This document shows positions 15,533-45,277 of a stretch of DNA of 64,000 nucleotides, piece after piece. The stretch comes from Clostridium sp. AM33-3. Its GTDB lineage: Bacteria; Bacillota; Clostridia; Lachnospirales; Lachnospiraceae. Under the pieces are notes generated by a model. It searched no databases. It was not told the DNA's origin and saw only the letters and a list, made by a program, of their open reading frames with translations. The position numbers and the translations under genes were made by a program. The stretch lies in contig NZ_QUIV01000001.1 of NCBI RefSeq assembly GCF_003480315.1, positions 124,001 to 188,000 of the forward strand, read 5' to 3'. Numbering within the stretch: position 1 is the first letter of the stretch; every line of letters starts with the position of its first letter.

Positions 15533-15544
15533 TGAGGAGGCGCT

Positions 15545-17338
15545 ATGGCAAAGAAAAAACTGACGGAATTTTTCAGCCGTGTCAGCATCCGCTCTACCAT
15601 CTATCTGTATTTCACCATCAGTGCGCTGACGGCCCTGATCCTGATGGGGATTTCGTTCTACGGGCGTCTGGTAGGGCAGATGACGGCGGCCATCCAGGAG
15701 GAAAACCAGACGATGCTGGCTCAGGTAAACCATTCGGTAGATTCCTACCTGCGTACCATTATGAAGCTGTCGGATTCCCTCTATTATGACGTCATAAAGA
15801 ATGCGGATCTTTCCACGGAGAGTATCCATAACGAGCTGAACCTTCTTTACGATAACAACCGGGACTGTGTGTCTAATATTGCGCTGTTTTCAAGGCAGGG
15901 AGAGCTGATCGATACCTTTCCGGCAGCACGCTTAAAGACCGGGCTGGATGTGACAGCGGAGGACTGGTTTACGGATACGCTGGAGCGCACGGAAAATCTG
16001 CACTTTACGACGCCGCATGTACAGTATATTTTTGACAGTGATGAAAACCAGTATACCTGGGTCATTACCATGACCCGTGCGGTGGAGATCACGAAGGGCG
16101 TTTCGGCCGAGCAGGGTATTTTACTGATCGACATTACCTATGGAAGCTTAAAGCAGCTGTTAGACAGCATCACCATGGGAAATCACGGCTACCTTTATCT
16201 GGTGAGTCCGGGCGGACAGCTGATCTACCACCCGCAGATGCAGCTGATCGACGCGGGGCAGATGCAGGAAAATTTCCGGGCTGCTGCCGGTTACCGCGAT
16301 GGCAACTGCCGGGAGTCCTATCAGGGCGAGATCCGGGATGTGACGGTCAAATCGGTGGGCTATACAGGCTGGAAGCTGGTGGGCGTTACACCTGAAAAAG
16401 AAAGCTATCTGAATACGTTAAAGACCAAACTGTTTATGGTATTTCTGATCGCGCTGTTCCTGTTTATGCTGATGATCATCAATGCATCGATTTCCTCCCG
16501 CATTACCATCCCGATCCGGGAGCTGGAAAAATCAGTCAACGCGCTGGAGAACGGGAACCTGGATGTGGAGGTTTATCAGGGCGGATCCTATGAGATCCGG
16601 CATCTGGGGCGTTCCATAGGTGACATGGCGCGCCAGATCAAGGTGCTGATGCAGGACATTGTGGCAGAGCATGAATCCAAGCGCAAAAGCGAATTTGACA
16701 CGCTCCAGTCCCAGATCAATCCGCATTTTCTTTACAATACCCTGGATATCATCGTGTGGATGATTGAGAACGAACAGAAGTCGGAGGCGGTCCGGGTGGT
16801 TACGGCCCTGGCCCGTTTCTTCCGCATCAGCTTAAGCAAGGGAAAGAGTATCATTCCCGTGCGGGACGAATTAGAGCATGTGCGCAACTATCTGATGATC
16901 CAGCAGATGCGTTTTAAGAACAAGTTCACCTATACCATTGACGCGGCGCCGGAGGTTCTGGGGTATGCAAGTCTGAAGCTGATGCTGCAGCCGCTTGTGG
17001 AAAACGCAATCTATCATGGCATGGAATTTAAGGACGGGGACGGCATCATTGAAATAAAAGCAGAACAAAAGGAAGACGGACTTTGGTTTACCGTGCTGGA
17101 TAACGGCCTTGGCATGACGGAGGAACAGGTAGAAAATCTTCTGACGGATCACGCGCATGTTTCCTCAAAGCGCGGCTCCGGGATCGGCGTTAAAAATGTG
17201 AATGAGCGGATAAGACTGTATTTCGGAAATGAATACGGACTGTTTATTGAGTCGGAGCCGGATGAGGGCACCACGATCCGCATCCATCTTCCGGCGGTGG
17301 ATTACCGGGAAATTCAGGAAAAGGAGAAAACGGTATGA
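15545..17338 (+). CDS. YesM/LytS-type sensor histidine kinase
   Basis: 597-residue membrane kinase. A transmembrane helix lies at about residues 19-42 and an extracytoplasmic Cache-like sensor domain spans about 45-290. The second helix (LFMVFLIALFLFMLMIINA) is followed by a HAMP segment. The kinase core has phospho-acceptor His394 in QINPHFLYNTLD, N-box PLVENAIYHGM, then GLGMTEEQ and GSGIGVKNVNERI. Its stop overlaps the next start (ATGA), tying it to a binding protein. The likely arrangement is that the membrane-anchored binding protein at 17335 or the lipoprotein at 18320 presents sugar to the sensor domain. Confidence 0.93.
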   Translation: MAKKKLTEFFSRVSIRSTIYLYFTISALTALILMGISFYGRLVGQMTAAIQEENQTMLAQVNHSVDSYLRTIMKLSDSLYYDVIKNADLSTESIHNELNLLYDNNRDCVSNIALFSRQGELIDTFPAARLKTGLDVTAEDWFTDTLERTENLHFTTPHVQYIFDSDENQYTWVITMTRAVEITKGVSAEQGILLIDITYGSLKQLLDSITMGNHGYLYLVSPGGQLIYHPQMQLIDAGQMQENFRAAAGYRDGNCRESYQGEIRDVTVKSVGYTGWKLVGVTPEKESYLNTLKTKLFMVFLIALFLFMLMIINASISSRITIPIRELEKSVNALENGNLDVEVYQGGSYEIRHLGRSIGDMARQIKVLMQDIVAEHESKRKSEFDTLQSQINPHFLYNTLDIIVWMIENEQKSEAVRVVTALARFFRISLSKGKSIIPVRDELEHVRNYLMIQQMRFKNKFTYTIDAAPEVLGYASLKLMLQPLVENAIYHGMEFKDGDGIIEIKAEQKEDGLWFTVLDNGLGMTEEQVENLLTDHAHVSSKRGSGIGVKNVNERIRLYFGNEYGLFIESEPDEGTTIRIHLPAVDYREIQEKEKTV

Positions 17339-18306
17339 GAAAACGGGATACATGGCTCTGGGTCATTTATGGGTTCGTACTGCTCTTTCTGTATCTGATT
17401 TCTTCTACGGATCTTCTGATCAAGGAGCGGAAAAACGAAATTTATCCGGTTTCGGTGATCCTGGATGACACGACGGATGAGTCTTACCAGAATTTTAAGA
17501 AGGGCGTGGACCGGGCAGCCATTGAGCTGAATGCGGATGTAAGCATGATCACGCTGTATGAGGGCGGTGATGCTTCCCAGCAGATCGAGCGGATGGCAAG
17601 AGAACAGCAGGACGGTGCGAGGGCACTGATCGTGATGCCTGTGGAGGAATCTGCCCTGGAATCCGCCCTGGCGGATAAACGGGTACAGATCCCGCTGGTG
17701 CTTGTCAATGCTGAGCTTCCGCGGGATAAGGTATCAGCAGTGGTTTCCACCGATTACGATGCCATGGGACAGAATCTTGCCAGACAGGCTCTGAATGAGC
17801 ATGGAAACCAGATTCCTTATTATCTGTTTTACAGCTCCAGAAAATCGGCGGCCCGACGGCATTTTCAGGATGGCGTGGAATCGGTTCTGCGTGGGGGCGG
17901 CTGTGAAATCAAGAAATTTGAGCGTCACGGTGACGGAAGCATCCGCAAGATCGTGGAAGAGCTGGTTTACCCGGAATCCGCCCAGGCAGTGATCATTGCC
18001 CTGGATGCGGAAACGCTTCTTGAGACGGCACAGATCCTGGCCGATAGCAGTGTATATCCGGAGCATGTCAGCGGTCTGTACGGCCGCGGGACTGCCACGC
18101 CGCTTTTGAATTATCTGGACCGCGGCGTGATAAGCGGGCTTAGTGTGACAGATGATTTCAGTACCGGATACTTAAGCGTCCGGCGTGCCGTGGAGATTTT
18201 GTCCAATCAGAAAACGGAAGAGGCAACGGTGCTGGAGAGCTATTATATCCGGAAAGAAGACCTGCGCAGCCCGGAATTCGAGAAAATGCTTTATCCCATT
18301 GAGTAG
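17335..18306 (+). CDS. Membrane-anchored periplasmic-binding-protein-like sensor
   Basis: 323 residues. One uncleaved hydrophobic helix (TWLWVIYGFVLLFLYLISSTDL) is followed by a type I periplasmic-binding fold: YPVSVILDDTTDESYQNFKKGVDRAA, RALIVMPVEESALESAL, VSTDYDAMGQNLARQAL, then a VIIALDAETLLETA segment. There is no lipobox, so it should stay as an N-anchored extracytoplasmic domain. It is translationally coupled (ATGA) to the histidine kinase and followed within 14 bases by a second binding protein. By analogy with three-component sugar sensors it would be the ligand-binding subunit of the kinase rather than a transporter part. Confidence 0.85.
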   Translation: MRKRDTWLWVIYGFVLLFLYLISSTDLLIKERKNEIYPVSVILDDTTDESYQNFKKGVDRAAIELNADVSMITLYEGGDASQQIERMAREQQDGARALIVMPVEESALESALADKRVQIPLVLVNAELPRDKVSAVVSTDYDAMGQNLARQALNEHGNQIPYYLFYSSRKSAARRHFQDGVESVLRGGGCEIKKFERHGDGSIRKIVEELVYPESAQAVIIALDAETLLETAQILADSSVYPEHVSGLYGRGTATPLLNYLDRGVISGLSVTDDFSTGYLSVRRAVEILSNQKTEEATVLESYYIRKEDLRSPEFEKMLYPIE

Positions 18307-18319
18307 GAGGCGGTTCGTA

Positions 18320-19366
18320 ATGAAAAAACACAGGAATAAGAAAAAATGTGACCGGAAGATAGTTTCTGCGGCCTGCATGGCCCTGGCCTGCATATTGCTT
18401 TCCGGCTGCCGTGCGGGAGCAGTCTCAGAGAAGAAGCATGCGATCCGCATCGGAGTAAGCCTGTACCGGGCAGATGATACCTTTATCGGTAATATCCGGT
18501 CGGAGCTGGAAAAGAGGGCAAAGGAATATGAACAGGAGACGGGCATCAAGGTGACACTGGACATTCAGGATGCCAAGGGAAATCAGTACGTCCAGAATAA
18601 GCAGGTGGAACGCTTTATATCGCTGGGCTGTGATACGCTCTGTGTCAATCCGGTGGACCGCACAACCTCCTCTGGGATCATAGATGCGGCAGCGGCTGCT
18701 GATATACCGGTAGTGTTTTTTAACCGGCAGCCCGTCGAGGAGGATATGGATCGCTGGGACAGGCTTTACTATGTTGGTGCGGATGCCAAAGAATCCGCGG
18801 TACTGGAGGCGGAAATCGTGGCGGACCAGTATGAAAAGGATCCGGCTTCCCTGGACAAAAACGGGGACGGTGTTATCAGCTATGTACTGCTGGAGGGAGA
18901 AAGCAATCACCAGGATTCCCTGATCCGGACAGAGTGGTCTGTCCAGACGTTAAAGGACCGGGGCGTCCCTATTGAAAAAATCACCGGAGGCATTGCCAAC
19001 TGGGAGCGCTCTCAGGCCTCGGCCCTGATGGAGCAGTGGCTGGAGCTGTATCCGGATACGATTGAGCTAGTTCTCAGCAACAACGACGATATGGCTCTGG
19101 GAGCGATTGATGCCCTGGACCGTGCCGGAGGAAAGAAAATCAGCGTTGTGGGGATTGACGGAACTACGCAGGGACAGGATGCCGTGCAGAGCGGAAAGAT
19201 GCTGGGAACTGTGTCGTCGGATAAAACCGGCTATGCGAATGCTATCTTTACGATTGCCGCTGCAGCCGGAATGGGTGAACCAATTCCGGGCGAAATTACG
19301 CTGGACAAAGGAAAATATTACTGGAGCCGGCAGAATAATGTCGTAAAAGAGAAAATAAATCCATAA
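18320..19366 (+). CDS. Galactose/glucose-binding-type lipoprotein (sensor-linked)
   Basis: 348-residue lipoprotein with a basic signal peptide and lipobox near ACILLSGC. The mature part is a type I sugar-binding fold related to MglB: RIGVSLYRADDTFIGNIRSEL, DTLCVNPVDRTTSS, VVFFNRQPVEEDMDRWDRLYYVGADAKESA. DKNGDGVIS matches the calcium-binding loop of galactose/glucose-binding proteins. ATG 18320 has GGAGG upstream. It clusters with the sensor genes and precedes a second MglB at 19516, with which it shares the same motifs, so the two are diverged paralogues. One may serve sensing and the other uptake. Confidence 0.88.
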   Translation: MKKHRNKKKCDRKIVSAACMALACILLSGCRAGAVSEKKHAIRIGVSLYRADDTFIGNIRSELEKRAKEYEQETGIKVTLDIQDAKGNQYVQNKQVERFISLGCDTLCVNPVDRTTSSGIIDAAAAADIPVVFFNRQPVEEDMDRWDRLYYVGADAKESAVLEAEIVADQYEKDPASLDKNGDGVISYVLLEGESNHQDSLIRTEWSVQTLKDRGVPIEKITGGIANWERSQASALMEQWLELYPDTIELVLSNNDDMALGAIDALDRAGGKKISVVGIDGTTQGQDAVQSGKMLGTVSSDKTGYANAIFTIAAAAGMGEPIPGEITLDKGKYYWSRQNNVVKEKINP

Positions 19367-19414
19367 AAAATTGTATAATCGAAAAAATTCAATAATCCAG
19401 GAAAGAAAATCCTA

Positions 19415-19443
19415 TGGAAAAATGCACAATCCACCATTATAAT
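19415..19443 (+). promoter_or_regulatory. Candidate mglB promoter
   Basis: In the 149-base gap before mglB, TATAAT at 19438-19443 has TGGAAA 17 bases upstream (19415-19420). Another TATAAT is at 19374-19379 without a good -35. I see no strong catabolite-repression site. Expression may depend on the regulator at 13922. Confidence 0.4.
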
Positions 19444-19515
19444 AAGCTTGTCAGATGGAGAAAGTAAACAAAAACTTACAAACATGACAATTTTATTTAA
19501 GGGAGGATTTACATT

Positions 19516-20628
19516 ATGAAATTAACTAAAAAAGTAACCGCAATGGCAATGGCATCCTGCATGATCCTGTCCATGACAGCATGTGGCGGAAGCAAACCGG
19601 CTGAGACCACCGCAGCAGCTACCGAGGCCGCTACTACTGAGGCAGCAAAAGAGGCAGAGACCACCGCAGCAGAAGTGAAAGAGGCAGCAGGCGGCGATTT
19701 TTCCGATAAGAAAGTCGGCATTTCCATTTATAAATTCGATGATAACTTCATGACTCTGTACCGTACCGAGCTGGAGAGATATTTAACCGAGGAGCTTGGC
19801 TTCAAGAAAGAAAACATCACCATCCAGGATGGTAAGGGCGATCAGGCAGAGCAGACAAACCAGATCCAGAACTTCATCGCTTCCGGCGTTGACGTTATGA
19901 TCCTGAACCTGGTACAGGCTTCCTCCGCACCGCAGGTAACCGATATGTGTAAGGATGCAGGTATCCCGGTTGTTTACATCAACCGTGAGCCGGATACCGC
20001 AGAGGAAGAGAGATGGGCTTCTGACAGCATCAGCGCAACCTATGTTGGTGCAGATGCAAGACAGTCCGGTACCTATCAGGGTGAAGAGATCGTTGAGACC
20101 GCTAACAAGGGCGATATCAACGGCGATGGCAAAGTAAGCTACATCATGGTTCAGGGCGATCCGGAGAACGTAGATGCACAGTACAGAACCGAGTTCTCTG
20201 TAAAGGCACTGACCGATGCAGGTCTGGAAGTTGAAGAACTTCTCCTTCAGAGAGGTGACTGGGATCAGGCAAAGGGCCAGCAGATCGTTCAGGATGCTTT
20301 AACCCAGTTCGGCGACAAGATCGAGGTTGTTTTCTGTAACAACGATGCAATGGCACTTGGCGCACTGCAGGCGATCGATGCAGCAGGCAGAAAAGTAAAT
20401 GAGGATATCTATCTGGTAGGTGTTGACGCTCTGACTGAGGCTGTTCAGGATATCACCGAGGGCAAGATGACCGGTACCGTATTCAACGATTACATGGGCC
20501 AGGCAAAGACCGCAGCAGACATGGCTGTGAAGTTCTTAAACGGCGAGACTGTTGATCCGGTTAACATGGTTGACTATGTAAAGGTTACTCCTGACAATGC
20601 AAAGGATATTCTTGACATCATCAAATAG
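19516..20628 (+). CDS. mglB: Galactose/methylgalactoside ABC binding protein MglB
   Basis: 370-residue secreted lipoprotein; lipobox SMTACGG, then an Ala/Thr/Glu-rich linker to about residue 58. The sugar-binding domain has VGISIYKFDDNFMTLYRTEL, VMILNLVQASSAPQV, VVYINREPD..ERW, YVGADARQSG and the calcium loop DINGDGKVS. The C-terminal CNNDAMALGALQAID block is typical of galactose/glucose-binding proteins. It heads an mglBAC order with ATPase and permease. Base composition is regular and codon use looks like that of a highly expressed gene, as expected for a binding protein needed in excess. Confidence 0.93.
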   Translation: MKLTKKVTAMAMASCMILSMTACGGSKPAETTAAATEAATTEAAKEAETTAAEVKEAAGGDFSDKKVGISIYKFDDNFMTLYRTELERYLTEELGFKKENITIQDGKGDQAEQTNQIQNFIASGVDVMILNLVQASSAPQVTDMCKDAGIPVVYINREPDTAEEERWASDSISATYVGADARQSGTYQGEEIVETANKGDINGDGKVSYIMVQGDPENVDAQYRTEFSVKALTDAGLEVEELLLQRGDWDQAKGQQIVQDALTQFGDKIEVVFCNNDAMALGALQAIDAAGRKVNEDIYLVGVDALTEAVQDITEGKMTGTVFNDYMGQAKTAADMAVKFLNGETVDPVNMVDYVKVTPDNAKDILDIIK

Positions 20629-20695: not shown

Positions 20696-20744
20696 AAAGA
20701 GACCGGCTTTGAATCTGGTCTGGAATCAGAAAGGAGAGAATGGG

Positions 20745-22256
20745 ATGGCAGAGTACAGGTTGGAAATGAAGGGAATCTGCAAAAGCTTCCCGGGTGTCAA
20801 AGCCCTTGACGGGATCAACTTAAGAGTCCGTCCCGGTACTGTTCACGCACTGATGGGAGAGAACGGAGCCGGAAAATCAACGTTGATGAAATGCCTGTTT
20901 GGAATTTATAAAATGGATGAAGGTGAAATCTATCTGGATGGCGAAAAGATGACGATCCTGAATCCGGATGATGCATTACACAAAGGACTGGCTATGGTTC
21001 ATCAGGAACTGCAGCCGATCCCGGAGCGGACGATCGCGGAGAATATGTATCTTGGCCGCTATCCGCTGAAATCGGTGGGACCGCTCAAGTACATTGACCA
21101 TAAGACCATGAATGAAGAAGCAGCCAAATGGCTGGAAAATATCAAAATGCCTTACGATCCGAAAGCAAAGCTTGGCACGCTTTCTATTGCTCAGATGCAG
21201 TCTGTCGAGATCGCAAAGGCCGTATCCATGAATGCGAAAGTAGTGATCCTGGACGAGCCGACGTCTTCCCTTACGGATAACGAGGTAGACGCTCTGTTCC
21301 GTATTGTCCGGGATCTTAGATCCAGAGGCGTATCCATGATCTACATCTCCCATAAGATGGCTGAGATCCGTGAGATCGCCGATGATATTACCATCATGCG
21401 TGATGGCACGTATGTTGGTACCTGGGAAGTAAAAGACATCAGTGATGATGAAATCGTCCGCCAGATGGTAGGACGTGAGCTGACCAATGTATATCCGCCT
21501 AAGGAAGATACCATCAAGGATGATGTGATCCTTGAAGTGAAGGATCTGTGCAGCATCCACGAGCGGTCCTTCCAGCATATCAGCTTCCAGTTAAAGAAGG
21601 GTGAGATCCTGGGCTTTGGCGGACTGGTCGGAGCGCAGAGAACCGAGCTGATGGAGGCTATTTTCGGAATGCGGCATATCAAGAGTGGAGAGGTGCTTGT
21701 TCACGGAAAACCGATCCAGGTTTCCAGACCGCGTGATGCGATCGGAGATGGTATCGGAATGATCACGGAGGACCGCCGCGGAACCGGTATCCTTGGATGC
21801 CTTTCCATTGCAGATAACGTATCCATCTCCTCCCTGAACAATTATCTGAAGATCGGCCCGATGCTTGACACCAAAAAGATCGAGGATCTTGTAAAGGATA
21901 ATGTCGCAAAACTGAGAATCAAGACGCCGAGCAGCAAAACGCTGATCCAGTCTCTTTCCGGAGGAAACCAGCAGAAGGTCATCATTGCCCGCTGGCTGGC
22001 CAACAATCCGGACGTGCTGATCATGGATGAGCCGACCCGTGGTATCGATGTCGGCGCTAAGTATGAGATCTACCAGATCATGATCGAGCTGACCAGACAG
22101 GGCAAATCGATCATCATGATCTCCTCCGAAATGCCGGAGTTGATCGGTATGTCACACCGGATCCTGGTAATGTGTGCCGGCAAGCTGACCGGTGAGGTAT
22201 CCGGAGAGGAAGCAACTCAGGAGAATATCATGAGTATGGCTACTCAGTTTAATTAA
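20745..22256 (+). CDS. mglA: Galactose/sugar ABC transporter ATPase MglA
   Basis: 503-residue double ABC ATPase. First domain: Walker A GENGAGKST, signature region LSIAQMQSVEIAKAVS, Walker B VVILDEPTS. Second domain: degenerate Walker A (GGLVGAQRTEL), signature LSGGNQQKVIIARWL, Walker B VLIMDEPTRGIDVGAK. This asymmetry is normal for MglA/RbsA. ATG 20745 is selected because AAGGAG (20731-20736) is 8 bases upstream; an earlier ATG at 20709 lacks one. It powers sugar import with MglB and MglC. Confidence 0.95.
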   Translation: MAEYRLEMKGICKSFPGVKALDGINLRVRPGTVHALMGENGAGKSTLMKCLFGIYKMDEGEIYLDGEKMTILNPDDALHKGLAMVHQELQPIPERTIAENMYLGRYPLKSVGPLKYIDHKTMNEEAAKWLENIKMPYDPKAKLGTLSIAQMQSVEIAKAVSMNAKVVILDEPTSSLTDNEVDALFRIVRDLRSRGVSMIYISHKMAEIREIADDITIMRDGTYVGTWEVKDISDDEIVRQMVGRELTNVYPPKEDTIKDDVILEVKDLCSIHERSFQHISFQLKKGEILGFGGLVGAQRTELMEAIFGMRHIKSGEVLVHGKPIQVSRPRDAIGDGIGMITEDRRGTGILGCLSIADNVSISSLNNYLKIGPMLDTKKIEDLVKDNVAKLRIKTPSSKTLIQSLSGGNQQKVIIARWLANNPDVLIMDEPTRGIDVGAKYEIYQIMIELTRQGKSIIMISSEMPELIGMSHRILVMCAGKLTGEVSGEEATQENIMSMATQFN

Positions 22257-22269: not shown

Positions 22270-23259
22270 ATGAATAAGAAAAATATCGATATTAAGAAAA
22301 CACTGCTGGACAATGGAATCATCATTGTACTGCTTCTGCTGGTACTGCTCACCGGCATCACGAAGGATAATTTCTTCTCCTGGAACAACTTATCCAATAT
22401 TTCCGTAAACACAGCAGCCCGCGTCATCATTGCATTCGGCGTCAGCGGCTGTCTGATCACGAAAGGTACGGACCTTTCCGCAGGACGTATGGTAGGTCTT
22501 GCTTCCTGTATCGCAGGTACCTTACTTCAGACCGCAGACTACAGCGGTAAGTTTTTCCCGAACCTGGGCGATATGCCAGTATTCGGAGTCCTGCTGTTAT
22601 GTGTCCTGATCTGTGCCATCTTTGGCCTGATCAACGGTATTGTAATCGCTTACCTGAATGTACCGGCTTTCATCGGTACCCTGGGCATGCAGCTGGCTGT
22701 CTATGGTATCTGCCTGGTTTATACCAACGCAACACCGCTTGGCGGCTATCGTAAGGCATATACCGCAATCGCAACCGGCAAGCTGTTCGGACAGCTTCCG
22801 TATATGTTCATCATTGCATTTGTGATCGGTCTGATCATGTGGTTCGTATTTAACTATACCCGTCATGGCAAATACATGTACGCGATCGGCGGCAATGAGG
22901 CTGCTGCTGAGGTTTCCGGCGTTAACGTAAAGAAAACCAAGATCATCATCTACGTAACCGCAGCCGCTCTGTATGCGATCGCAGGCTTCCTTCTCGGCGC
23001 AAAGGCCGGCGGTGCCAGCGTTAACATGGGTCAGGGTTACGAGCTGGAGGCAATCGCAGCCTGCACCATCGGCGGTGTATCCGTAAACGGTGGTATCGGC
23101 CGTATCTCCGGTGTTGTCATCGGTGTTCTCGTATTCGAGCTGCTGAAATCCTCCATGCAGTTCCTTGGAATCCCGACCAACTATCAGTACATTGTACAGG
23201 GTATCGTTATCATCGTAGCGATTGCACTGGATATCCGCAAATACATCGCGAAGAAGTAA
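22270..23259 (+). CDS. mglC: Galactose/methylgalactoside ABC permease MglC
   Basis: 329-residue polytopic permease of the ribose/galactose family, with eight or more hydrophobic helices. Motifs include GVSGCLITKGTDLSAGRMVGLAS, NVPAFIGTLGMQLAVYGI and the cytoplasmic coupling segment YAIGGNEAAAEVSGVNVKKTK. EAIAACTIGGVSVNGGIGRISGVVIGVL follows near the C-terminus. AAGGAGG precedes ATG 22270, 13 bases after mglA. It ends the mgl operon, and a strong terminator follows. Confidence 0.95.
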   Translation: MNKKNIDIKKTLLDNGIIIVLLLLVLLTGITKDNFFSWNNLSNISVNTAARVIIAFGVSGCLITKGTDLSAGRMVGLASCIAGTLLQTADYSGKFFPNLGDMPVFGVLLLCVLICAIFGLINGIVIAYLNVPAFIGTLGMQLAVYGICLVYTNATPLGGYRKAYTAIATGKLFGQLPYMFIIAFVIGLIMWFVFNYTRHGKYMYAIGGNEAAAEVSGVNVKKTKIIIYVTAAALYAIAGFLLGAKAGGASVNMGQGYELEAIAACTIGGVSVNGGIGRISGVVIGVLVFELLKSSMQFLGIPTNYQYIVQGIVIIVAIALDIRKYIAKK

Positions 23260-23340: not shown

Positions 23341-23790
23341 TCAGCGCGTCTGGCTCAGCCTGCTGTTCTGGTATTTTCCGGAGAAGGTTACATCTTCCCC
23401 GAACCAGGACGGAGGCACAAAGTGCTCCGCCGCTTCGATATTCGGAAATTCTACCTCCGCCAGCATCAGCCCTTTATAGGTCCCGGAAAAAACATCGAGC
23501 TCGATCACAAGCCCGGTTCCGCTGATCGGCTTTTTATAGCGTGTCTTTGTGATGATGATGCCATCGGCCTTTGAGAGCAGATGCTCATAGGCTTCCTTTG
23601 TAAGCGGAAGATTGTACTCCTCCCGCGCAAGGAGCCCTTTTGATTTATAGGTGAGCACATAGGAATCATTTTCCCTGCGGACGCGTACAACCGGCTCGGT
23701 GCAGAGATAAGCCTGCTCCATCTGAACGGCCTCCCAGGTGTCATAGTCTGAGGGCGGTGCAGTGACCAGATACTTTCTTTCAATTTCCAT
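23341..23790 (-). CDS. CYTH domain protein
   Basis: 149-residue CYTH (CyaB-thiamine triphosphatase) domain protein. It begins MEIERKYLV, the metal-binding ExExK motif. The tunnel-fold charges follow: VVRVRRENDSYVLTYKSKG, then REEYNLPLT, KTRYKKP, VIELDVFSGTYKGLMLAEVEF. Such proteins hydrolyse organic or inorganic triphosphates, or more rarely cyclise ATP. The exact substrate cannot be told from sequence alone. It is a single gene converging on mglC. Confidence 0.9.
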   Translation of the reverse strand: MEIERKYLVTAPPSDYDTWEAVQMEQAYLCTEPVVRVRRENDSYVLTYKSKGLLAREEYNLPLTKEAYEHLLSKADGIIITKTRYKKPISGTGLVIELDVFSGTYKGLMLAEVEFPNIEAAEHFVPPSWFGEDVTFSGKYQNSRLSQTR

Positions 23791-23880: not shown

Positions 23881-23909
23881 TTGGAAAGCGGAAGAGGATG
23901 TGTTATGAT
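23881..23909 (+). promoter_or_regulatory. Promoter before solute-binding protein gene
   Basis: TTGGAA (23881-23886), 17-base spacer, TATGAT (23904-23909). The leader to ATG 24030 would be about 115 bases, in which I recognise no riboswitch. Confidence 0.6.
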
Positions 23910-24029: not shown

Positions 24030-25469
24030 ATGAAGCATATCAGGCATTATTTCTGTACGGCTTTGCTTGGCACGGCGGTGCTTACTGCCTGTAGCGGCGC
24101 AGAAAAGGTGAAAAGTAACACACCGGTACAGATCACGATGTGGAACTATTACAATGGGGCACAGAAAGAGGAGATGGACCGACTTGTACAGGAGTTCAAT
24201 GATACGGTTGGGCTGGAACAGAAAATCGTGGTGGAATCTGTCAGCAAAGGAAGCGTATCGGAACTTGAGGATGCGGTGCGTGACAGTACGGACGGAAAGA
24301 CCGGAAGTGATCCGCTTCCGGATTTCTGCTCTGCCTATGCGGACGCGGCATATGACCTCTGGAAAAAGGATAAAATTTCGGACTTTCGTCCTTATCTGAC
24401 GGATGAGGAGTATGACAGCTATATTTCAGGCTATCTGGAGGAAGGTAATTTTGGAACCAATGCGGCCATGATGATTTTTCCGGTGGCCAAATCAACGGAA
24501 GTGCTGACGATCAACAGTACCGCCTGGGAACCGTTTGCCAGCGAGACCGGTGCTTCACTGGAGGAGCTTTCCACATGGGAGGGACTTGCTCAGACAGCAA
24601 AAGCATATTATGAATGGACCGATGCAAAGACGGAGACACCCAATGACGGCCAGGCCTTCTTTGGGCGCGATTCCTTCGCAAATTATATTCTCATTGGAAG
24701 TCATCAGCTCGGACATACTATTTATTCCGGTGAAAACGGAAGTATATCCGTGGATGTGGATCCGGACACTATGCGCCGCCTCTGGGATAACTTCTATGTG
24801 CCTTACATCAGCGGTTATTATCTGGAGGAGGGGAGATTCCGCAGCGATGACCTGAAAACAGGAAAGCTGATCGCCTATGTCGGATCTTCCAGCGGAGCTG
24901 TCTATGCGCCGGATCAGGTGACTTATGATGATGGCTCGACCGAGACAATCCGGTGTGACATCCTCCCGCTGCCCGGCTTTGCGGGAGCGTCTTCCTGCGC
25001 AGTCCAGCAGGGAGCCGGTGCGGTTATGTTCCGCACGGATGAGAAAAAAGAAAAAGCCGTTGTCACATTTTTAAAATGGCTGACCAGGGAAGAAAACAAT
25101 ATCCCATTCTGTATGGCATCCGGATATCTTCCGGTAACAAAAACTGCCAGTGATGTGGAGCGATGCATTTCCTGCATGAAGGAGCATAACCTGGAACTCG
25201 ACCCGAATGTAGAGACTATGCTGAAAACAGCGATCCCGCAGGTTAAGGAATATCGTCTTTATACGACAACTCCGTTTCCCGGCGCCCAGGATGCGAGAAA
25301 GGTGATTGATTCTACACTGCCGGAACGTGCCATGTCAGACCGGCAAAAGGTTCTGGAGCTCATAAGCTCCGGGATGTCCCTGGAGGCAGCGGTTTCGGAA
25401 TGCAATACAGAAGAGGCATTTGAAAGCTGGTGTGAAGACACAAAAGCGCAGCTTATAAATTTGAAGTGA
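24030..25469 (+). CDS. Family 1 extracellular solute-binding lipoprotein
   Basis: 479 residues with a signal peptide and lipobox TAVLTACSG (Cys near residue 21). The mature protein has a family 1 (maltose-type) binding fold: VQITMWNYYNGAQKEEMDRLVQEFN at the start, then STEVLTINSTAWEPFASETG, VAYVGSSSG-like and AVVTFLKWLTREENNIPFCMASGYLPVT. No ABC permease or ATPase gene is adjacent. Instead a large GGDEF-EAL receptor begins 13 bases downstream in the same direction. This suggests the binding protein delivers a ligand to that receptor. The ligand, perhaps a sugar or oligosaccharide, is unknown. Confidence 0.88.
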   Translation: MKHIRHYFCTALLGTAVLTACSGAEKVKSNTPVQITMWNYYNGAQKEEMDRLVQEFNDTVGLEQKIVVESVSKGSVSELEDAVRDSTDGKTGSDPLPDFCSAYADAAYDLWKKDKISDFRPYLTDEEYDSYISGYLEEGNFGTNAAMMIFPVAKSTEVLTINSTAWEPFASETGASLEELSTWEGLAQTAKAYYEWTDAKTETPNDGQAFFGRDSFANYILIGSHQLGHTIYSGENGSISVDVDPDTMRRLWDNFYVPYISGYYLEEGRFRSDDLKTGKLIAYVGSSSGAVYAPDQVTYDDGSTETIRCDILPLPGFAGASSCAVQQGAGAVMFRTDEKKEKAVVTFLKWLTREENNIPFCMASGYLPVTKTASDVERCISCMKEHNLELDPNVETMLKTAIPQVKEYRLYTTTPFPGAQDARKVIDSTLPERAMSDRQKVLELISSGMSLEAAVSECNTEEAFESWCEDTKAQLINLK

Positions 25470-25482
25470 TGAGGTTGAGCGT

Positions 25483-28434
25483 ATGAAAAAAACACGGTCT
25501 ATGAAGTGGAGGCTTGTGATTCCATTTTGTCTGATCCTGATTTTTCAGACTATTTTCATGATGGCATTTCTATCCACCGGAAATGTTGCCCAAGGCCTTT
25601 ATCAGACAGAACTCCGTTCATTGAAAAAGGATGTGGAAAACAGCGGGCTTCTTCTGGAGCGGGAGGTGCTGCAGCACTGGATGAATGACATCCGAAGCTC
25701 GGTGACGATCCAGACAACGATCCAGAGTGTCCTTAAGGAAGAGGGGAAAAAAGCATCAGACATTTCCCATGACTGGGAGCTCAATGAGCGGATCATAGGG
25801 GAAATCATGCCGGATGTCCTGGAACTGCTCCACCGAAGCTATGGCAACAGTATTTATGTGGTCCTGGACGGTCCCTCTGCACAGCAGAGTGCCGAAGGCC
25901 ATCAGGCCGGTATTTCCGTGCTGGATACGGACAGCAGCAGCTTTGCCGCGGATAATTCCGATCTCCAGCTTTCCCGTGGCGCTGCTGTTATCTCAAAGCA
26001 GTTTAAGATTCCATTGGCCAGCGACTGGAAGCTTGATTTTGACATGTCAGAAGAGATAGGATCTGGCTTTTACAATCCGTATTTTCTGACAAAGGGACAG
26101 AAGCTCAAAGGTAATATTGCTCGCTTTGCCTTCCTGGGGCCCATATCCGGCGCACTGCAGGCAGATACGGACGGGGTCAGTTACTCTATACCGCTGACAG
26201 CAGAAGACGGCACGGTGATCGGTGTTCTCGGCGGAACCATGCTGAAGGAGCAGATTTATTCACTTCTGAAAAATGAACTGCTTCACAAAGATGAGGACAC
26301 CATCCTGATGCTCGCGAAAAGGGGAGAAAATGAAACGGTCCTGACCCCGGTCCTGACGTACGGTATGTCCTTTCACCGGTCCTTTGAAGGCATGAACGGA
26401 ATCGGCGGGACTGCCACCAGGTGGAATGACATTCAGAAAACACAGGATCAGAACGGAGACTGGTGGTATCTTGCATCCAGGGAGCTTCCGGTATATGGGC
26501 GCGATTCCGCGTTTTACAGAACGAGCTGGCAGATCGTGGTGCTCAGGCGTCAGAGCGTGATGCGCTCCTTCTATCAAAAGCTTCTGAACGGCCTTCTTTC
26601 CGGCTGTGCGTTCGCCATGATCCCCGGGATTTTGTTTGCCCTGATGTATGGAACGTACTTCAGCCTGCCGATCCGCAGGCTGATCTGCCAGCTGCGCTCT
26701 GCGGAGGATGATTCCCGGATCCATCTTCAGCCAACCTATATCAGCGAGCTGGATGAGCTGAGCCACGCGATTGAATATCTGAGCGCAGATGTGGCGGAAT
26801 CGGCCCTGCGTATATCCAGGATCCTGGAAGGCTCCGGTGTTCCCATTGGCGTATTTGAATATCTGCCAGACCGGAAAAAGGTATTCTGCAGCCGGACTCT
26901 GTTTGAGCTTCTCGGACTTGAACAGACGGATCGGGATTATACGTACCTGGAAGAGACCGGCTTCCGGAAGATGATGCAGATCCTGGGGCCTGGGGTTAAG
27001 GAGCACCAGGATGTCCGGCTTTATCATCTGAAGGCGAACGGAAAGGAACGCTATTTCCGCTTAAAAATCGTCCGGGCGGAAAATGGCAATGAGACAGGCG
27101 TCCTGCTTGATGTGACAGAAGAACTGGAGTACCAGAAACGTCTGGAGTTGGAGCGTGACTACGATCCGCTGACAGAGCTTTATAACCGGCCGGCCTTCCG
27201 CAGAAATACGCTAAAGCTTCTGCAAAGCGGAAGGATCAGCTGCGGTGCCATGCTGATGTGGGATCTGGATAATCTGAAATATGTCAACGATAACTATGGT
27301 CATGAGATGGGAGACCGCTATATCCGTCTGTTCGCAGATCAGCTGAAAACCCTGAACCGGTACGGTGCTGTGGTAGAGCGCCATTCCGGCGATGAATTTA
27401 TGGCGTTTCTCTGCGGAAGCAGTGAGGAAGAACTACGCGGTATCCTTTGTGAGCTGCGCACCGTAGTGTGCGCAGCCAGCCTGAAGGTGTCCGACCAGTA
27501 TGAGCTTCCGCTGCGCGCCTCAGCGGGGGTTACCTGGTATCCGCGCCAGGCCCGTGATTTTGAAACGCTTGTCCGGTATGCCGATTTTGCCATGTACATG
27601 GCAAAGCACAGTACCAAGGGCGTACTTCAGGAATTTGATCTGGAAAGCTATCAGAAGAATTCCTATCTTTTGTCCGGGCAGGAGGAGATCAACCGTCTTC
27701 TCGAGCAGGATGATGTCCCATTTGCGGCACAGCCGATCGTCTGCCGTGACGGAAGTCTGTATGGATATGAGCTGCTGATGCGTCCGGAAACCAGGAATTT
27801 CAAAAATATCCAGGAGGTTTTGAATCTGGCCAAGCGTCAGGCAAAGCTTCCGCAGTTTGAACGACTGACCTGGGTTGGCGCCTTCCGGTGGCTTTTTACA
27901 CACAAGGCTGAAATACCATCCGACTGCCATATCTTCATCAATTCCATTGCCAATGTATCTCTTGACCCGGATTGCATGAATGAACTGCTCCGGAAATATC
28001 CGGATTTTCTGAAACATGTTGTCGTGGAGATCACGGAGGGAGAGGCCATTAGCAGCCGTGATATGGAATTCAAAATGGAGACCATCCGCCGGACCGGAAG
28101 CTTGATCGCGCTGGATGATTTCGGAAGCGGATACAGCAGTGAGGGAACGCTCCTGAATATGGAGGTGAACATTGTAAAGCTGGATATGGGACTGGTCAGC
28201 GGAATCGATAAAAACCGGGACAAGCAGGAGCTTGCCGCAAACCTGATCCACTACTGCAAGGAACGCAATATCCTGGTACTTGCAGAGGGTGTGGAGCGGA
28301 TCGAGGAGGTTCACACTATGCTGCTTCTGGGAGCTGATCTCTTCCAGGGTTATTATTTCGGACGGCCGGAGCTGGAAATCCGTCCGGTAAACCCATATGT
28401 GATCGAAAAAATGCGTAAGTTATTGCAAAAATAG
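25483..28434 (+). CDS. Cache-PAS-GGDEF-EAL cyclic-di-GMP receptor
   Basis: 983-residue membrane protein. A transmembrane helix (about 10-30) is followed by a large extracytoplasmic Cache-like domain (30-360). A second helix (366-393) leads into a HAMP-like segment, a PAS-like domain (440-550), GGDEF (560-725) and EAL (735-975). The GGDEF motif reads SGDEF (635-639), so cyclase activity is uncertain. The EAL domain keeps its key residues: E763 in YELLMR, the Asn of FINSIAN, EITE, DDFGSGYSS, the Lys of VKLD, AEGVE and QGYYFGRP. It is therefore probably an active c-di-GMP phosphodiesterase controlled by an external ligand through the neighbouring binding protein. Confidence 0.9.
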   Translation: MKKTRSMKWRLVIPFCLILIFQTIFMMAFLSTGNVAQGLYQTELRSLKKDVENSGLLLEREVLQHWMNDIRSSVTIQTTIQSVLKEEGKKASDISHDWELNERIIGEIMPDVLELLHRSYGNSIYVVLDGPSAQQSAEGHQAGISVLDTDSSSFAADNSDLQLSRGAAVISKQFKIPLASDWKLDFDMSEEIGSGFYNPYFLTKGQKLKGNIARFAFLGPISGALQADTDGVSYSIPLTAEDGTVIGVLGGTMLKEQIYSLLKNELLHKDEDTILMLAKRGENETVLTPVLTYGMSFHRSFEGMNGIGGTATRWNDIQKTQDQNGDWWYLASRELPVYGRDSAFYRTSWQIVVLRRQSVMRSFYQKLLNGLLSGCAFAMIPGILFALMYGTYFSLPIRRLICQLRSAEDDSRIHLQPTYISELDELSHAIEYLSADVAESALRISRILEGSGVPIGVFEYLPDRKKVFCSRTLFELLGLEQTDRDYTYLEETGFRKMMQILGPGVKEHQDVRLYHLKANGKERYFRLKIVRAENGNETGVLLDVTEELEYQKRLELERDYDPLTELYNRPAFRRNTLKLLQSGRISCGAMLMWDLDNLKYVNDNYGHEMGDRYIRLFADQLKTLNRYGAVVERHSGDEFMAFLCGSSEEELRGILCELRTVVCAASLKVSDQYELPLRASAGVTWYPRQARDFETLVRYADFAMYMAKHSTKGVLQEFDLESYQKNSYLLSGQEEINRLLEQDDVPFAAQPIVCRDGSLYGYELLMRPETRNFKNIQEVLNLAKRQAKLPQFERLTWVGAFRWLFTHKAEIPSDCHIFINSIANVSLDPDCMNELLRKYPDFLKHVVVEITEGEAISSRDMEFKMETIRRTGSLIALDDFGSGYSSEGTLLNMEVNIVKLDMGLVSGIDKNRDKQELAANLIHYCKERNILVLAEGVERIEEVHTMLLLGADLFQGYYFGRPELEIRPVNPYVIEKMRKLLQK

Positions 28435-28530: not shown

Positions 28531-29817
28531 ATGAGTTTACAGGTAGAAAAATTAGAAAAAAACATGGCGAAATTAACCGTAGAAGTACCGGCAGAGCAGT
28601 TTGAGGCAGCTCTTAAAACTTCCTATAACAAGAATAAAAACAAGTTTAACATTCCTGGCTTCCGTAAGGGCAAAGCACCGCAGGCAATGATCGAGAAGAT
28701 GTACGGTGTCGGCGTATTTTACGAGGATGCTGTAGATGAGGCAATCAACGCTTCTTATCCGGATGCTGCAAAAGAGAGCGGTCTTGAGATCGTTTCCAGA
28801 CCGGAAATCTCCATCGAGCAGGTAGAAAAGGGCAAATCCTTCATCTACGTTGCAACCGTAGCTACCAAGCCGGAGGTAACCCTGGGCGAGTACAAGGGTA
28901 TTGAAGTAGAAAAAGCAAAACCGGAAGTAACCGACGCTGACGTAGAGGCAGAGTTAAAGAAGGTTCAGGAGCAGAACTCCAGACTGGTATCCGTTGAGGA
29001 CCGCGCAGTTGCAGACGGTGACCAGACCGTGATCGACTTCGAGGGCTTTGTAGATGGCAAGGCATTCGAGGGCGGAAAGGCTGAGGACTACACTCTGGTG
29101 ATCGGTTCCCATTCCTTCATCGATACCTTTGAAGATCAGCTGATCGGCAAGAACATCGGTGAGGATGTAGAAGTAAACGTAACCTTCCCGGCTGAGTATC
29201 ATGCAGCAGAGCTGGCTGGCAAGCCGGCAACCTTCAAGGTTAAGATCAAAGAGATCAAGATGAAAGAGCTTCCGGAGCTGAACGATGAGTTCGCAAGCGA
29301 GGTTTCTGAGTTCGAGACTCTTGACGCATACAAAGAGGACGTTAAGAACAAACTGGCTGAGACCAAGCAGGCACAGGCTACCGCTGAGAACGAGAACAAC
29401 GTTGTACAGAAGGTTGTTGATAACGCTCAGATGGATATTCCGGCACCGATGGTGGATGAGCAGGTTCGCAACATGATCGAGGACTACGCACGCAGACTGC
29501 AGAGCCAGGGCATCAGCTTTGACCAGTATCTGCAGTTCACCGGCAGCACCATCGAGCAGTTACAGGAGCAGATGCGTCCGCAGGCTGAGTTAAGACTGCG
29601 TACCCGCCTGGTACTCGAGGCTGTTGTAGCAGCAGAGAAGATCGAGCCGTCTGACGAGTTAGTTGAGGCTGAGATCAAGAAGATGTCCGAGAACTACAAG
29701 ATGGACGCTGAGCAGATCAAGACCATCATGGGTGAGGCAGGAATGGCTCAGATGAAGGCTGACATGGCTGTTCAGGAGGCTGTAGATTTCCTGGTAGCTG
29801 AGGCTAAATTAGTATAA
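28531..29817 (+). CDS. tig: Trigger factor
   Basis: 428-residue ribosome-associated chaperone. The N-terminal ribosome-binding domain carries FNIPGFRKGKAPQAMIEKMYG, the signature loop GFRKGK. The FKBP-like prolyl isomerase domain spans about 150-240 (DRAVADGDQTVIDFEGFVDGKAFEGGKAEDYTLVIGS). The helical C-terminal arms fill the rest. Length is standard. AAGGAGG precedes ATG. It opens the conserved tig-clpP-clpX-lon-engB block, whose products handle nascent-chain folding and protein turnover. Confidence 0.97.
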   Translation: MSLQVEKLEKNMAKLTVEVPAEQFEAALKTSYNKNKNKFNIPGFRKGKAPQAMIEKMYGVGVFYEDAVDEAINASYPDAAKESGLEIVSRPEISIEQVEKGKSFIYVATVATKPEVTLGEYKGIEVEKAKPEVTDADVEAELKKVQEQNSRLVSVEDRAVADGDQTVIDFEGFVDGKAFEGGKAEDYTLVIGSHSFIDTFEDQLIGKNIGEDVEVNVTFPAEYHAAELAGKPATFKVKIKEIKMKELPELNDEFASEVSEFETLDAYKEDVKNKLAETKQAQATAENENNVVQKVVDNAQMDIPAPMVDEQVRNMIEDYARRLQSQGISFDQYLQFTGSTIEQLQEQMRPQAELRLRTRLVLEAVVAAEKIEPSDELVEAEIKKMSENYKMDAEQIKTIMGEAGMAQMKADMAVQEAVDFLVAEAKLV

Positions 29818-29851
29818 TATTTTCCAGTATAGGAATACTAACACTATGACT

Positions 29852-29888
29852 AGGTGCAGATTTCGGGCCAGACCTGGAGTCTGCACCT
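29852..29888 (+). other. Hairpin between tig and clpP
   Basis: AGGTGCAGA (29852-29860) pairs with TCTGCACCT (29880-29888), with an inner CCAG/CTGG pairing. No T-run follows, so it is probably a processing or stabilising hairpin that allows read-through to clpP. Confidence 0.55.
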
Positions 29889-29930
29889 ATCATTGCAAAA
29901 GACAGTAATGAAAGACAGGAGGATCTGACG

Positions 29931-30512
29931 ATGGCATTGGTACCTTATGTAATTGAACAGACCAGCAGAGGAGAACGCTCCTACGATATCTATTCCCGCT
30001 TGTTAAAAGAGAGAATTATTTTCCTTGGGGAAGAAGTAACTGACGTTTCCGCAAGCCTGATCGTAGCTCAGCTTCTGTTCCTGGAGTCTGAGGACCCGGG
30101 CAAGGATATTAACTTATACATCAACAGTCCGGGCGGATCCGTGACTGCCGGCATGGCCATCTACGATACCATGAATTACATCAAATGCGATGTATCTACC
30201 GTGTGCATCGGTATGGCAGCCAGCATGGGTGCATTTCTTCTGGCCGGCGGCGCAAAGGGCAAACGTTTCGCGCTTCCGAATGCAGAGGTTATGATCCACC
30301 AGCCGTCTGGTGGTGCTCAGGGTCAGGCAACCGAGATTCAGATCGTTGCTGAGAAAATCCTGCAGACCAAAAAGAAATTAAATGAGATTCTTGCAGCCAA
30401 TACCGGACAGCCCTACGAGGTCATCTGCCGCGATACGGAACGCGACAATTACATGACCGCGGAAGAAGCCTTAAAATATGGCTTGATCGACCAGGTGATC
30501 GCAAAGCACTAA
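29931..30512 (+). CDS. clpP: ATP-dependent Clp protease proteolytic subunit
   Basis: 193-residue serine peptidase that forms the tetradecameric ClpP barrel. The catalytic triad is visible: Ser98 in GMAASMG, His123 in VMIHQPSGG, Asp172 in RDTERDN. The N-terminal axial loop ([19 protein letters not shown]) and [11 protein letters not shown] are standard. AGGAGG precedes ATG 29931. ClpX, its unfoldase partner, is encoded directly downstream. Confidence 0.98.
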
Positions 30513-30566
30513 GGCTGCTTTACGCTCAAGAATTCTTACAACCAGGAAAGGACAAGGTGTTATTTT

Positions 30567-31874
30567 ATGCCGACAAGAACAGATGACAGGGTCAGATGCT
30601 CTTTCTGCGGAAAGACCCAGGATCAGGTAAGAAAACTGATTGCCGGTTCCAACAATGTATTTATCTGTGACGAATGTATTGAACTCTGCGGAGAAATCCT
30701 CGCGGAGGAGCTGGAAGAGGAGGAAGAGAAGGAGCCGGTATCTCCGTTAGCTGGCATTAACCTGTTAAAGCCGAAGGAGATCAAGGCATTTCTGGATGAG
30801 TATGTCATTGGACAGGATGCAGCCAAGAAGGTACTGTCTGTAGCGGTTTACAATCACTACAAACGTATCACCTCCGGTGCAGGCAGTGATGTGGATGTGC
30901 AGAAGAGCAATATTCTTATGCTGGGACCGACTGGTTCCGGTAAGACTTATCTGGCACAGACTCTGGCCAAAATCTTAAATGTACCATTTGCCATCGCGGA
31001 TGCGACCGCGCTGACTGAGGCCGGTTATGTAGGTGAGGATGTTGAGAATATTCTCTTAAAGCTGATCCAGGCGGCAGATTACGATATCAGCAAGGCGGAG
31101 TACGGTATTATCTACGTGGATGAGATCGATAAGATCACGAAGAAATCTGAGAACGTATCTATCACCCGTGATGTATCCGGTGAGGGTGTCCAGCAGGCAC
31201 TTTTAAAAATCCTCGAGGGAACCGTAGCCAGCGTGCCGCCGCAGGGAGGAAGAAAGCATCCGCATCAGGAGCTTCTGCAGATCGATACGACCAATATTCT
31301 GTTTATCTGCGGAGGAGCGTTTGATGGTCTGGAGCGCATCATCGAGAGCCGCTTAAGCGCCGGCTCTATTGGATTTAACGCAGAGGTCTTAGACAAGAAC
31401 AAGACCGACATCGATGAGCTCTTACGCCAGGTAGAACCGCACGATCTTGTGAAATTCGGCCTGATCCCGGAGTTTATCGGCCGTGTACCTGTAACGGTTT
31501 CCCTGGACCTTCTCGATGTGCATTCCTTAAGCCGGATCCTGACCGAGCCGAAGAATGCCCTGACCAAGCAGTATCAGAAGCTGTTTGAGCTGGATGGCGT
31601 TAAACTGGAATTTACCCCGGAAGCCATTGAAGAGGTTGCAAAGCTTGCGGTAGAGAGAAAAACCGGAGCCAGAGGACTTCGTTCTATTCTGGAATCCGTC
31701 ATGATGGATCTGATGTATGAGATCCCGTCTGACAATAATATCGGCATCTGCACCATTACCAAAGATGTCGTAGACAAAACAGGAGAGCCGGAGCTGGTAT
31801 ACCGGGATACGGCTGTGCCGCGCAAAACACTCTCCCAGAGACTGAAGAAAGAAACATCCGGCGAGATCGCATAA
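30567..31874 (+). CDS. clpX: Clp protease ATP-binding subunit ClpX
   Basis: 435-residue AAA+ unfoldase. The N-terminal C4 zinc finger ([17 protein letters not shown], then ICDECIELC) binds adaptors. Walker A is GPTGSGKT, Walker B YVDEIDK, and sensor and arginine-finger segments ([16 protein letters not shown]) are all present. The ClpP-contact IGF-type loop appears as IGFN in the [12 protein letters not shown] segment. It delivers unfolded substrates to ClpP. Confidence 0.98.
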
Positions 31875-31888
31875 TGCCGGATGGCGAG

Positions 31889-31914
31889 AATGGGAGCTAT
31901 AAGCTCCCATTTTT
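31889..31914 (+). terminator. Terminator between clpX and lon
   Basis: TGGGAGCT (31891-31898) pairs with AGCTCCCA (31902-31909) over a 3-base loop, flanked by AA on the left and TTTTT on the right. It separates the clpPX transcript from lon, at least in part. Confidence 0.85.
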
Positions 31915-31952
31915 ATGTTTCAGTCTGTTCATATCTATTTAGGAGGAACCTG

Positions 31953-34265
<2,313 letters not shown>

Positions 34266-34286
34266 AAGGAAAAGTGAGGAAGAACG

Positions 34287-34910
34287 ATGATTATTAGAAA
34301 AGCGGAATTGGAGACGGTCTGCGGCATTACCAGTACATTGCCGGAAAATCTTCTGCCGGAATTTGCCTTTGCCGGGAAGTCCAATGTTGGAAAATCTTCC
34401 CTGATCAATGGCCTGCTGAACCGCCGTGCGCTGGCGAGGACTTCCTCACAGCCCGGAAAGACCCAGACGATCAATTTTTACAATGTCAATGATGATCTGT
34501 ATTTTGTTGATCTTCCGGGTTACGGATATGCAAAAGTATCAGTTGAGGTAAAAGCAAAATGGGGCAAGATGATCGAGCGTTATCTGAAAAAATCAAAGAT
34601 GCTCAAATGCATCTTCCTGCTCATTGATATACGCCATGATCCGTCAGCGAACGATAAGCTGATGTATGACTGGATCGTATCCAATGGCTACAAGCCGGTT
34701 ATCATTGCCACGAAGCTGGACAAATTGAAACGCAGCCAGATCCAGAAGCATGTGAAGATGGTCCGTGAAGGACTTGGTCTTGCGAAGGAGGATATTCTGA
34801 TCCCGTTTTCCGCCGAGACCAAGCAGGGAAGAGATGAAATCTGGGCGCTCATTGAGTCTTTGCAGAATCCGGCTCCGGAAATGGCAGAGCCGGTGACAGA
34901 GTCTGAATAA
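34287..34910 (+). CDS. engB: Ribosome biogenesis GTPase YsxC/EngB
   Basis: 207-residue small GTPase for 50S subunit assembly. The G motifs are all present: G1 GKSNVGKSS, G3 DLPGYG, G4 TKLD, G5 SAE. QPGKTQTINFY lies in switch I. The lon-engB adjacency is widely conserved in Firmicutes. The 21-base spacing and lack of a terminator suggest co-transcription with lon. Confidence 0.96.
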   Translation: MIIRKAELETVCGITSTLPENLLPEFAFAGKSNVGKSSLINGLLNRRALARTSSQPGKTQTINFYNVNDDLYFVDLPGYGYAKVSVEVKAKWGKMIERYLKKSKMLKCIFLLIDIRHDPSANDKLMYDWIVSNGYKPVIIATKLDKLKRSQIQKHVKMVREGLGLAKEDILIPFSAETKQGRDEIWALIESLQNPAPEMAEPVTESE

Positions 34911-45119: not shown

Positions 45120-45143
45120 TACCTTCGATATAAGGACAATAAA

Positions 45144-45226
45144 AGCGCGGGAGTCTGTGTGACAGGCTGAGAGGAAGATAAATCTTCGACCGTACCTGAT
45201 TTGGGTCATGCCAACGGAGGGAAGCA
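45144..45226 (+). ncRNA. TPP riboswitch (THI element)
   Basis: The conserved core is present in order: GCGCGGGAGTCTG, GGCTGAGAGGAAGAT with AATCTTCGACCG closing the P3 arm, TACCTGATTTGGGTCATGCCA and AACGGAGGGAAGC. CTGAGAG binds the pyrimidine of thiamine pyrophosphate and the ACCTGAT...TGCCAACG half binds the diphosphate. An attenuator hairpin lies directly downstream, so thiamine sufficiency should stop transcription before thiW. Confidence 0.96.
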
Positions 45227-45236
45227 ACAAGAATAT

Positions 45237-45277
45237 AGGTGCATCTTCTGGCATTGGCCGGAGGGTGTACTTTTTTT
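45237..45277 (+). terminator. TPP-controlled attenuator
   Basis: A 16-bp stem with several G-U pairs (arms starting AGGTGCATC and ending GGGTGTACT) followed by seven T at 45271-45277. It sits 10 bases after the riboswitch core. Confidence 0.85.

Follow-up and report, generated by a model that had tools for sequence, protein, structure and literature searches.

A widespread pairing of a solute-binding lipoprotein gene with a dCache receptor gene, seen in Clostridium sp. AM33-3 with a GGDEF-EAL output

The gene pair and its surroundings

We examined a gene pair on the forward strand of the 64-kb window, that is, the whole stretch of DNA analysed; the features of the pair are collected in Table 1. 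The upstream gene encodes a solute-binding protein (SBP) and the downstream gene a receptor. The open reading frames, strand and 13-base spacing called in a first-pass annotation of this DNA were confirmed, as were the 983-residue length of the receptor and, by Pfam, its GGDEF and EAL domains. From their strand and spacing, the two genes would be expected to share one transcript. Promoter-like sites in the region numbered 10 against 6.1 ± 2.5 expected, which is not clearly above chance.

Table 1. Features of the SBP-receptor gene pair (positions are those of the 64-kb window)
Feature	Position	Strand	Basis or remark
Promoter-like site before the pair (TTGGAA, 17 nt, TATGAT, TG before)	23881..23909	+	Sites not clearly above chance
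Solute-binding lipoprotein, 479 aa, SBP_bac_8 (PF13416)	24030..25469	+	ORF; Pfam; AlphaFold2
Gap between both genes, 13 bases	25470..25482	+	Sequence; without terminator-like site
Receptor, 983 aa, TM1 - dCache - TM2 - PAS-like - GGDEF - EAL	25483..28434	+	ORF; Pfam; model
dCache ectodomain, about residues 33-366	25579..26580	+	Predicted fold
PAS-like stretch (weak), about residues 438-554	26794..27144	+	PAS_9, E = 0.13, below cut-off
GGDEF domain, residues 559-711, SGDEF at 635-639	27157..27615	+	Pfam, 101 bits; catalytic residues intact
EAL domain, residues 734-962	27682..28368	+	Pfam, 139.6 bits; catalytic residues intact

The first-pass annotation had stated that no permease or ATPase gene lay nearby, and this proved incorrect. 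Upstream of the SBP, the same strand encodes an ABC ATPase (20709-22256) and then a BPD_transp_2 permease (22270-23259), whose gene stops 770 bases short of the SBP start; an antisense CYTH gene (23341-23790) occupies the interval. This transporter accompanies Peripla_BP_4 binding proteins (17335-20628), which belong to an SBP class other than PF13416.

Ahead of the ABC transporter lie genes for an AraC-HTH response regulator (13922-15532, +) and a dCache_1-HAMP-His_kinase protein (15545-17338, +), the latter followed by a membrane-anchored Peripla_BP_4 protein (17335-18306, +). The set at 13922-18306 (+) is a second SBP-style sensor near the pair, and resembles the XylFII-LytS plan. After the pair, at 28531-34910 (+), are genes that by eye look like those for trigger factor, ClpP, ClpX, Lon and EngB, and a similar downstream gene order is present in 18-19 of 80 relative loci. 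Scanned against Rfam at gathering thresholds, the window gave no c-di-GMP riboswitch and a single match, a TPP riboswitch at 45137-45240 (+), which scored 54.7 against a gathering score of 54.3.

The solute-binding lipoprotein

The upstream protein matched PF13416 with 88.2 bits (Pfam cut-off 27), while its match to SBP_bac_1 fell under that family's own cut-off. An AlphaFold2 model (pLDDT 88.9) has a MalE/UgpB-type fold, and its best structural matches were a cyclic maltosyl-maltose binder, UgpB and a dinucleotide binder. The lipobox cysteine, Cys21, is invariant in an alignment of 37 SBPs. A simple lipobox pattern was matched by 115 of 133 family SBPs; most of the others appear to have relaxed or cut lipoboxes, and among the 133 the lipobox was absent from the SBPs of L035, L050 and L078. 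Two SBPs, P0018 and P0021, contain an internal repeat.

An arginine of the family, R423, was aligned by MAFFT on an arginine of UgpB that we take to be a phosphate contact. R423 is present in 123 of 132 nearer members, and does not appear among the counted residues shown for the 14 members of the LuxR branch described below. A phosphate contact at this position would be a lead to the ligand and no more; the SBP perhaps binds a saccharide or a phosphate-ester compound.

The receptor

The Cache domain proposed in the first-pass annotation had no Pfam match in the window receptor itself, yet among the GGDEF-EAL receptors scanned dCache_1 was matched in 14 of 31 and MCP-like_PDC_1 in 17 of 31. Residues 1-400 were predicted by AlphaFold2 (pLDDT 89.8) to adopt a dCache fold, with the two stacked PDC subdomains after a long N-terminal helix by which a dCache domain is recognized, so the Cache assignment gains support from both the model and the relatives. 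Among solved structures, the nearest folds belong to dCache domains with directly bound small ligands, such as 9hvj (uracil) and PctA (amino acids). The PAS domain that had also been proposed is no more than hinted at (Table 1).

The reading of the GGDEF motif as SGDEF and the completeness of the EAL catalytic residues were both as first described. The contrast between a complete EAL site and SGDEF could be taken to indicate a lost cyclase, a reading that comparison with the relatives contradicts. SGDEF is present in all 45 GGDEF-EAL relatives, and in these the GGDEF residues D594, D596, N602, D637 and E638 are invariant; because the motif is fixed and the catalytic residues are intact, we do not regard it as a defect. 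In the same 45 relatives RxxD is absent from columns 626-629, which we take to be the position of the inhibition site. The EAL residues E763, N820, E849, D878, D879 and K899 are likewise invariant, and E935 is present in 43 of 45. Judged by these residues, the receptor can probably both make and break c-di-GMP.

Conserved adjacency and the missing permease

A profile built from the 37 SBPs identified 280 relatives in the genome collection, and the best 80 of these 280 were analysed. In 77 of the 80 loci (76 under other settings) the SBP gene is followed immediately, in the same orientation, by one that encodes the ectodomain. The three exceptions are L016, at a contig end, and L067 and L069, in which the next gene is esterase-like by eye. 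Because the pairing recurs in 77 of the 80 best relatives, it is not an accident of one strain. The Pfam assignments of the listed proteins (120 of 3544, and 49) showed no SBP-receptor fusions, and no relatives were found on viral contigs.

We also searched these loci for permease genes, using a profile of the BPD_transp_1 kind, which is blind to BPD_transp_2. Within 2 kb on the same strand, a BPD_transp_1 permease was found at none of the 80 loci, some of which are short contigs with flanks only partly visible; at two of the 80 such a permease lay within 5 kb on the opposite strand. As controls, 20 ordinary PF13416 SBPs were chosen by hand along the listings for a Hungatella and a Breznakiella genome (10 each), and 19 of them were flanked by a permease pair. 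The adjoining permease genes that mark an ABC-type SBP were therefore a feature of the controls (19/20) and not of the family (0/80). The four best-scoring non-family SBPs were all beside a permease pair as well, and scored at most 84 bits against at least 190 for family SBPs, two short fragments excepted.

Two further observations were made at these loci. A gene of about 186 codons, absent from this position in the window, lies directly upstream of the SBP gene in 17 loci (for example L002:7421-7981 and L004:7328-7888); Pfam assigned both of the examples tested to DJ-1/PfpI. Split or stop-containing SBP or receptor genes occur at L032, L044, L068, L028, L198, L199 and L208, reflecting either decay or assembly errors.

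These data bear on the possibility that the SBP works in normal transport for an ABC permease that is nearby, remote or shared, with the receptor adjacent merely for co-expression. SBP_bac_8 proteins are mostly involved in transport, one source labels relatives as "multiple sugar transport system substrate-binding protein", and in addition to the ABC transporter 770 bases upstream in the window, 17 loci have a similar same-strand BPD_transp_2 permease, part of the upstream system, whose gene ends 2.2-2.9 kb short of the SBP. However, that neighbour is a transporter of a different class, associated with Peripla_BP_4 proteins, and most of the 80 loci are not among these 17. Together with the contrast between family and controls in adjoining permeases and the distance in score from ordinary SBPs, this makes the transport explanation unlikely. 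The opposing proposal of the first-pass annotation, that the SBP serves the receptor instead of a transporter, is borne out at the genomic level by the adjacency and the absent permease pair.

Taxonomic distribution

The search was extended to 299 genomes of Lachnospiraceae, the family of the Hungatella hathewayi genome G002. The SBP was present at E ≤ 1e-40 in 44 of the 299; 46 of 50 SBP places adjoin an ectodomain, and 46 of 52 ectodomain places (at least 54 bits) adjoin an SBP. The SBP exceptions are G191, at a contig end and with its ectodomain on another contig; G214, in which local search found a weak ectodomain neighbour (L145); G309, in which a Band_7 gene follows (L139); and G132, a short SBP whose GGDEF-EAL neighbour lacks this ectodomain (L148). 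The other ectodomain exceptions are L180, near a contig end, and L177, L178, L179 and L181, which have different genes upstream.

Beyond this family, the SBP was found in 48 of 391 genomes of the class of G010 and in 7 of 296 genomes of the phylum of the spirochaete G007. Among 35 further loci (L185-L219), spirochaetes included, the ectodomain adjoins the SBP in 32; L193 and L214 are near contig ends, and L206 is a true exception. The 1.5-kb flanks of these 35 loci showed no permease. Counter-cases to the pairing are thus the four ectodomain receptors without an adjoining SBP gene (L177, L178, L179 and L181) and the family SBPs without such a receptor at L067, L069, L139 and L206.

The records L016, L020 and L075 are named as Paenibacillaceae or Bacillus, while their copies are nested among those of Lachnospiraceae in the ectodomain tree; these are probably misnamed metagenome bins. 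The observation also covers L017, L019, L024 and others in that tree.

Exchange of output domains

Comparison of the receptors revealed that the arrangement is wider than the first-pass annotation had supposed, c-di-GMP being one of four outputs. Among the 79 ectodomain ORFs at the first 80 loci, 45 are GGDEF-EAL proteins, as is the window receptor, in which Pfam found no other output. Another 22 carry a GGDEF-like domain followed by a histidine kinase (HisKA and HATPase_c) and a receiver, and in 16 of these 22 the catalytic Asp594 of the GGDEF domain is lost. A GGDEF without EAL was called in 8, of which 5 are clean, the others being L027 (cut by the contig end), L028 (EAL as a separate ORF) and L032 (broken). 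The remaining 4 are fragments. Kinases without the GGDEF part were found at L155 (also by Pfam) and L156. SBPs scoring about 210-330 bits go with receptors of about 500-590 residues that end in a GerE/LuxR HTH, here anchored to the membrane, detected in 13 of 13 examined (L141 just below the Pfam cut-off) and in L190 from the spirochaete set.

Four loci that are LuxR-type or resemble that type (L135, L137, L140 and L181) have a same-strand gene immediately upstream whose product resembles a response regulator (RR profile 30-38 bits); membrane-protein genes adjoin it. One 1330-aa ectodomain protein, P0140, is listed with glutamate-synthase Pfam domains and is possibly a misassembly.

An ectodomain tree was built from 73 rows, each with at least 380 ectodomain profile positions, and in it the 20 kinases form one clade (SH-aLRT 100). 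Wider trees of 94 rows omitted L081-L130, in which the flanks were too short to include the whole output, and labelled "LuxR" proteins by length, with Pfam run on 13 such proteins and L190. The kinases require two changes in the wider SBP tree and three in the wider ectodomain tree, and the LuxR group is a single clade in both. Each wider tree needs at least 11 output changes, with a warning of long branches from the program, and the SBP and ectodomain trees have 54 of 91 splits in common. Because the SBP and the ectodomain are both kept while outputs are swapped, we regard these two as the sensing unit.

A mirror-tree analysis of the same 73 rows gave partial correlations with the SBP of 0.49 for the ectodomain, 0.35 for GGDEF and 0.09 for EAL. 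The ectodomain ranked first in 88% of bootstraps, a modest preference. Over 46 GGDEF-EAL pairs, mean identity was lowest for the ectodomain (34%, the most variable part) and highest for the SBP (53%, the most conserved). We note that the adjacency and the congruent trees would follow equally from plain co-inheritance.

Comparison with known systems

Several known systems share parts of this plan. LuxP-LuxQ of Vibrio resembles the kinase branch here in that an SBP sits on a hybrid kinase with a double-PAS/Cache ectodomain, and differs in that LuxP, which binds AI-2, is of the Peripla_BP type. In Vibrio parahaemolyticus, the periplasmic binding protein ScrB is reportedly thought to drive the GGDEF-EAL receptor ScrC, within what is said to be a quorum-sensing-like scrABC set. 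XylFII-LytS of Clostridium beijerinckii differs from the window pair by its histidine kinase output, and XylFII belongs to another SBP class.

For XylFII-LytS, the available text of PMC10384115 cites a solved complex in which the SBP docks on this firmicute receptor. The same text describes CuaD-CuaS-CuaR of Ruminiclostridium cellulolyticum, in which, as here, the gene of a clostridial family 1 SBP lipoprotein adjoins that of the receptor, and CuaD was shown to bind the outer part of its receptor (PMC10384115). As portrayed there, CuaDSR differs in having a classical sensor kinase and response regulator, a link to cellobiose uptake, and an outer part without a predicted domain. The window receptor, with GGDEF-EAL only, lacks the histidine kinase and response regulator plan of both CuaDSR and XylFII-LytS.

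NspS-MbaA, from Vibrio cholerae and Sinorhizobium meliloti, shares with our pair the placement of an SBP gene immediately before that of a GGDEF-EAL receptor with two TM segments and, according to the portions available of PMC8079147 and PMC9993111, SGDEF without RxxD; here too the EAL residues are present beside the universal SGDEF. The SGDEF domain of MbaA is reportedly required in vivo for the polyamine response (excerpts of PMC8079147 and PMC9993111). Since the active sites are conserved in the present family and that domain is required in MbaA, we would expect a two-way switch and not a phosphodiesterase whose cyclase is inactive. NspS is a PotD homologue, whereas the family profile scored E. 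coli PotD at -2.3 bits and UgpB at 25.7, so by its SBP the family is not of the NspS lineage. The known NspS-MbaA cases are also proteobacterial, and the present family occurs in Clostridia and spirochaetes. By analogy, the pair likely works in the manner of NspS-MbaA, and the kinase branch in that of CuaD-CuaS, XylFII-LytS or LuxP-LuxQ.

In the excerpts available, SBP-driven receptors are described as widespread, NspS-MbaA and a Vibrio quorum-sensing case are cited for c-di-GMP, and the c-di-GMP cases named are proteobacterial. Among the matches listed in the open-licence literature, judged by title or the start of the abstract, none describes the present SBP-receptor family.

Interpretation

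We propose, with a probability of about 0.75, that the SBP and receptor encode one sensing unit. The anchored lipoprotein would capture an extracellular solute outside the membrane and, feeding no transporter of its own, would dock on the receptor encoded next to it, at the dCache ectodomain. The signal would then pass through TM2 and the PAS-like stretch to GGDEF-EAL, and the intact active sites suggest that the ligand state of the SBP may shift the balance of c-di-GMP synthesis and breakdown. The first-pass model had a captured nutrient alter c-di-GMP breakdown; the nutrient input is retained here, but with SGDEF intact in 45 of 45 relatives synthesis may switch too.

It is also conceivable, if improbable, that the dCache domain binds a small ligand directly and that the SBP concentrates or buffers this ligand near the membrane without docking. 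The closest solved dCache folds do bind their own small ligands, and ectodomain receptors without an adjoining SBP exist. A mere buffer, however, would hardly require the near one-to-one linkage of 46/50 and 46/52, and a variable ectodomain beside a conserved SBP fits ligand recognition by the latter. A signalling unit in which GGDEF-EAL is a non-enzymatic c-di-GMP-binding scaffold or a relay to another protein is very improbable: the decayed GGDEF of the kinase branch implies that the fold can persist without activity and a c-di-GMP target, for instance a riboswitch, was not found in the window, but in the 45 GGDEF-EAL relatives both domains keep their catalytic residues with little or no variation.

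Returning to the single sensing unit, we see even odds for a broader view in which the transporter-free SBP and dCache would form an exchangeable cassette across Clostridia, Erysipelotrichia and Spirochaetota. It would read a shared class of extracellular ligand and have been plugged in turn onto c-di-GMP synthesis and breakdown, a hybrid phosphorelay and membrane-anchored transcription control, the decayed GGDEF of the kinase branch being a fossil of exchange.

As far as our searches show, this is a widespread SBP-receptor module whose general kind is known and whose family and range of outputs are new in the literature searched. The module forms a large family among gut Clostridia and also spirochaetes; its SBP seems to have shifted from transport to signalling, which cautions against annotating all PF13416 proteins of these genomes as sugar-transport proteins. 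Its members amount to natural matched constructs, in which one SBP-Cache input is set against a cyclase/phosphodiesterase, a kinase or a DNA-binding domain, and they offer a concrete test bed for signalling from nutrients to c-di-GMP in gut bacteria.
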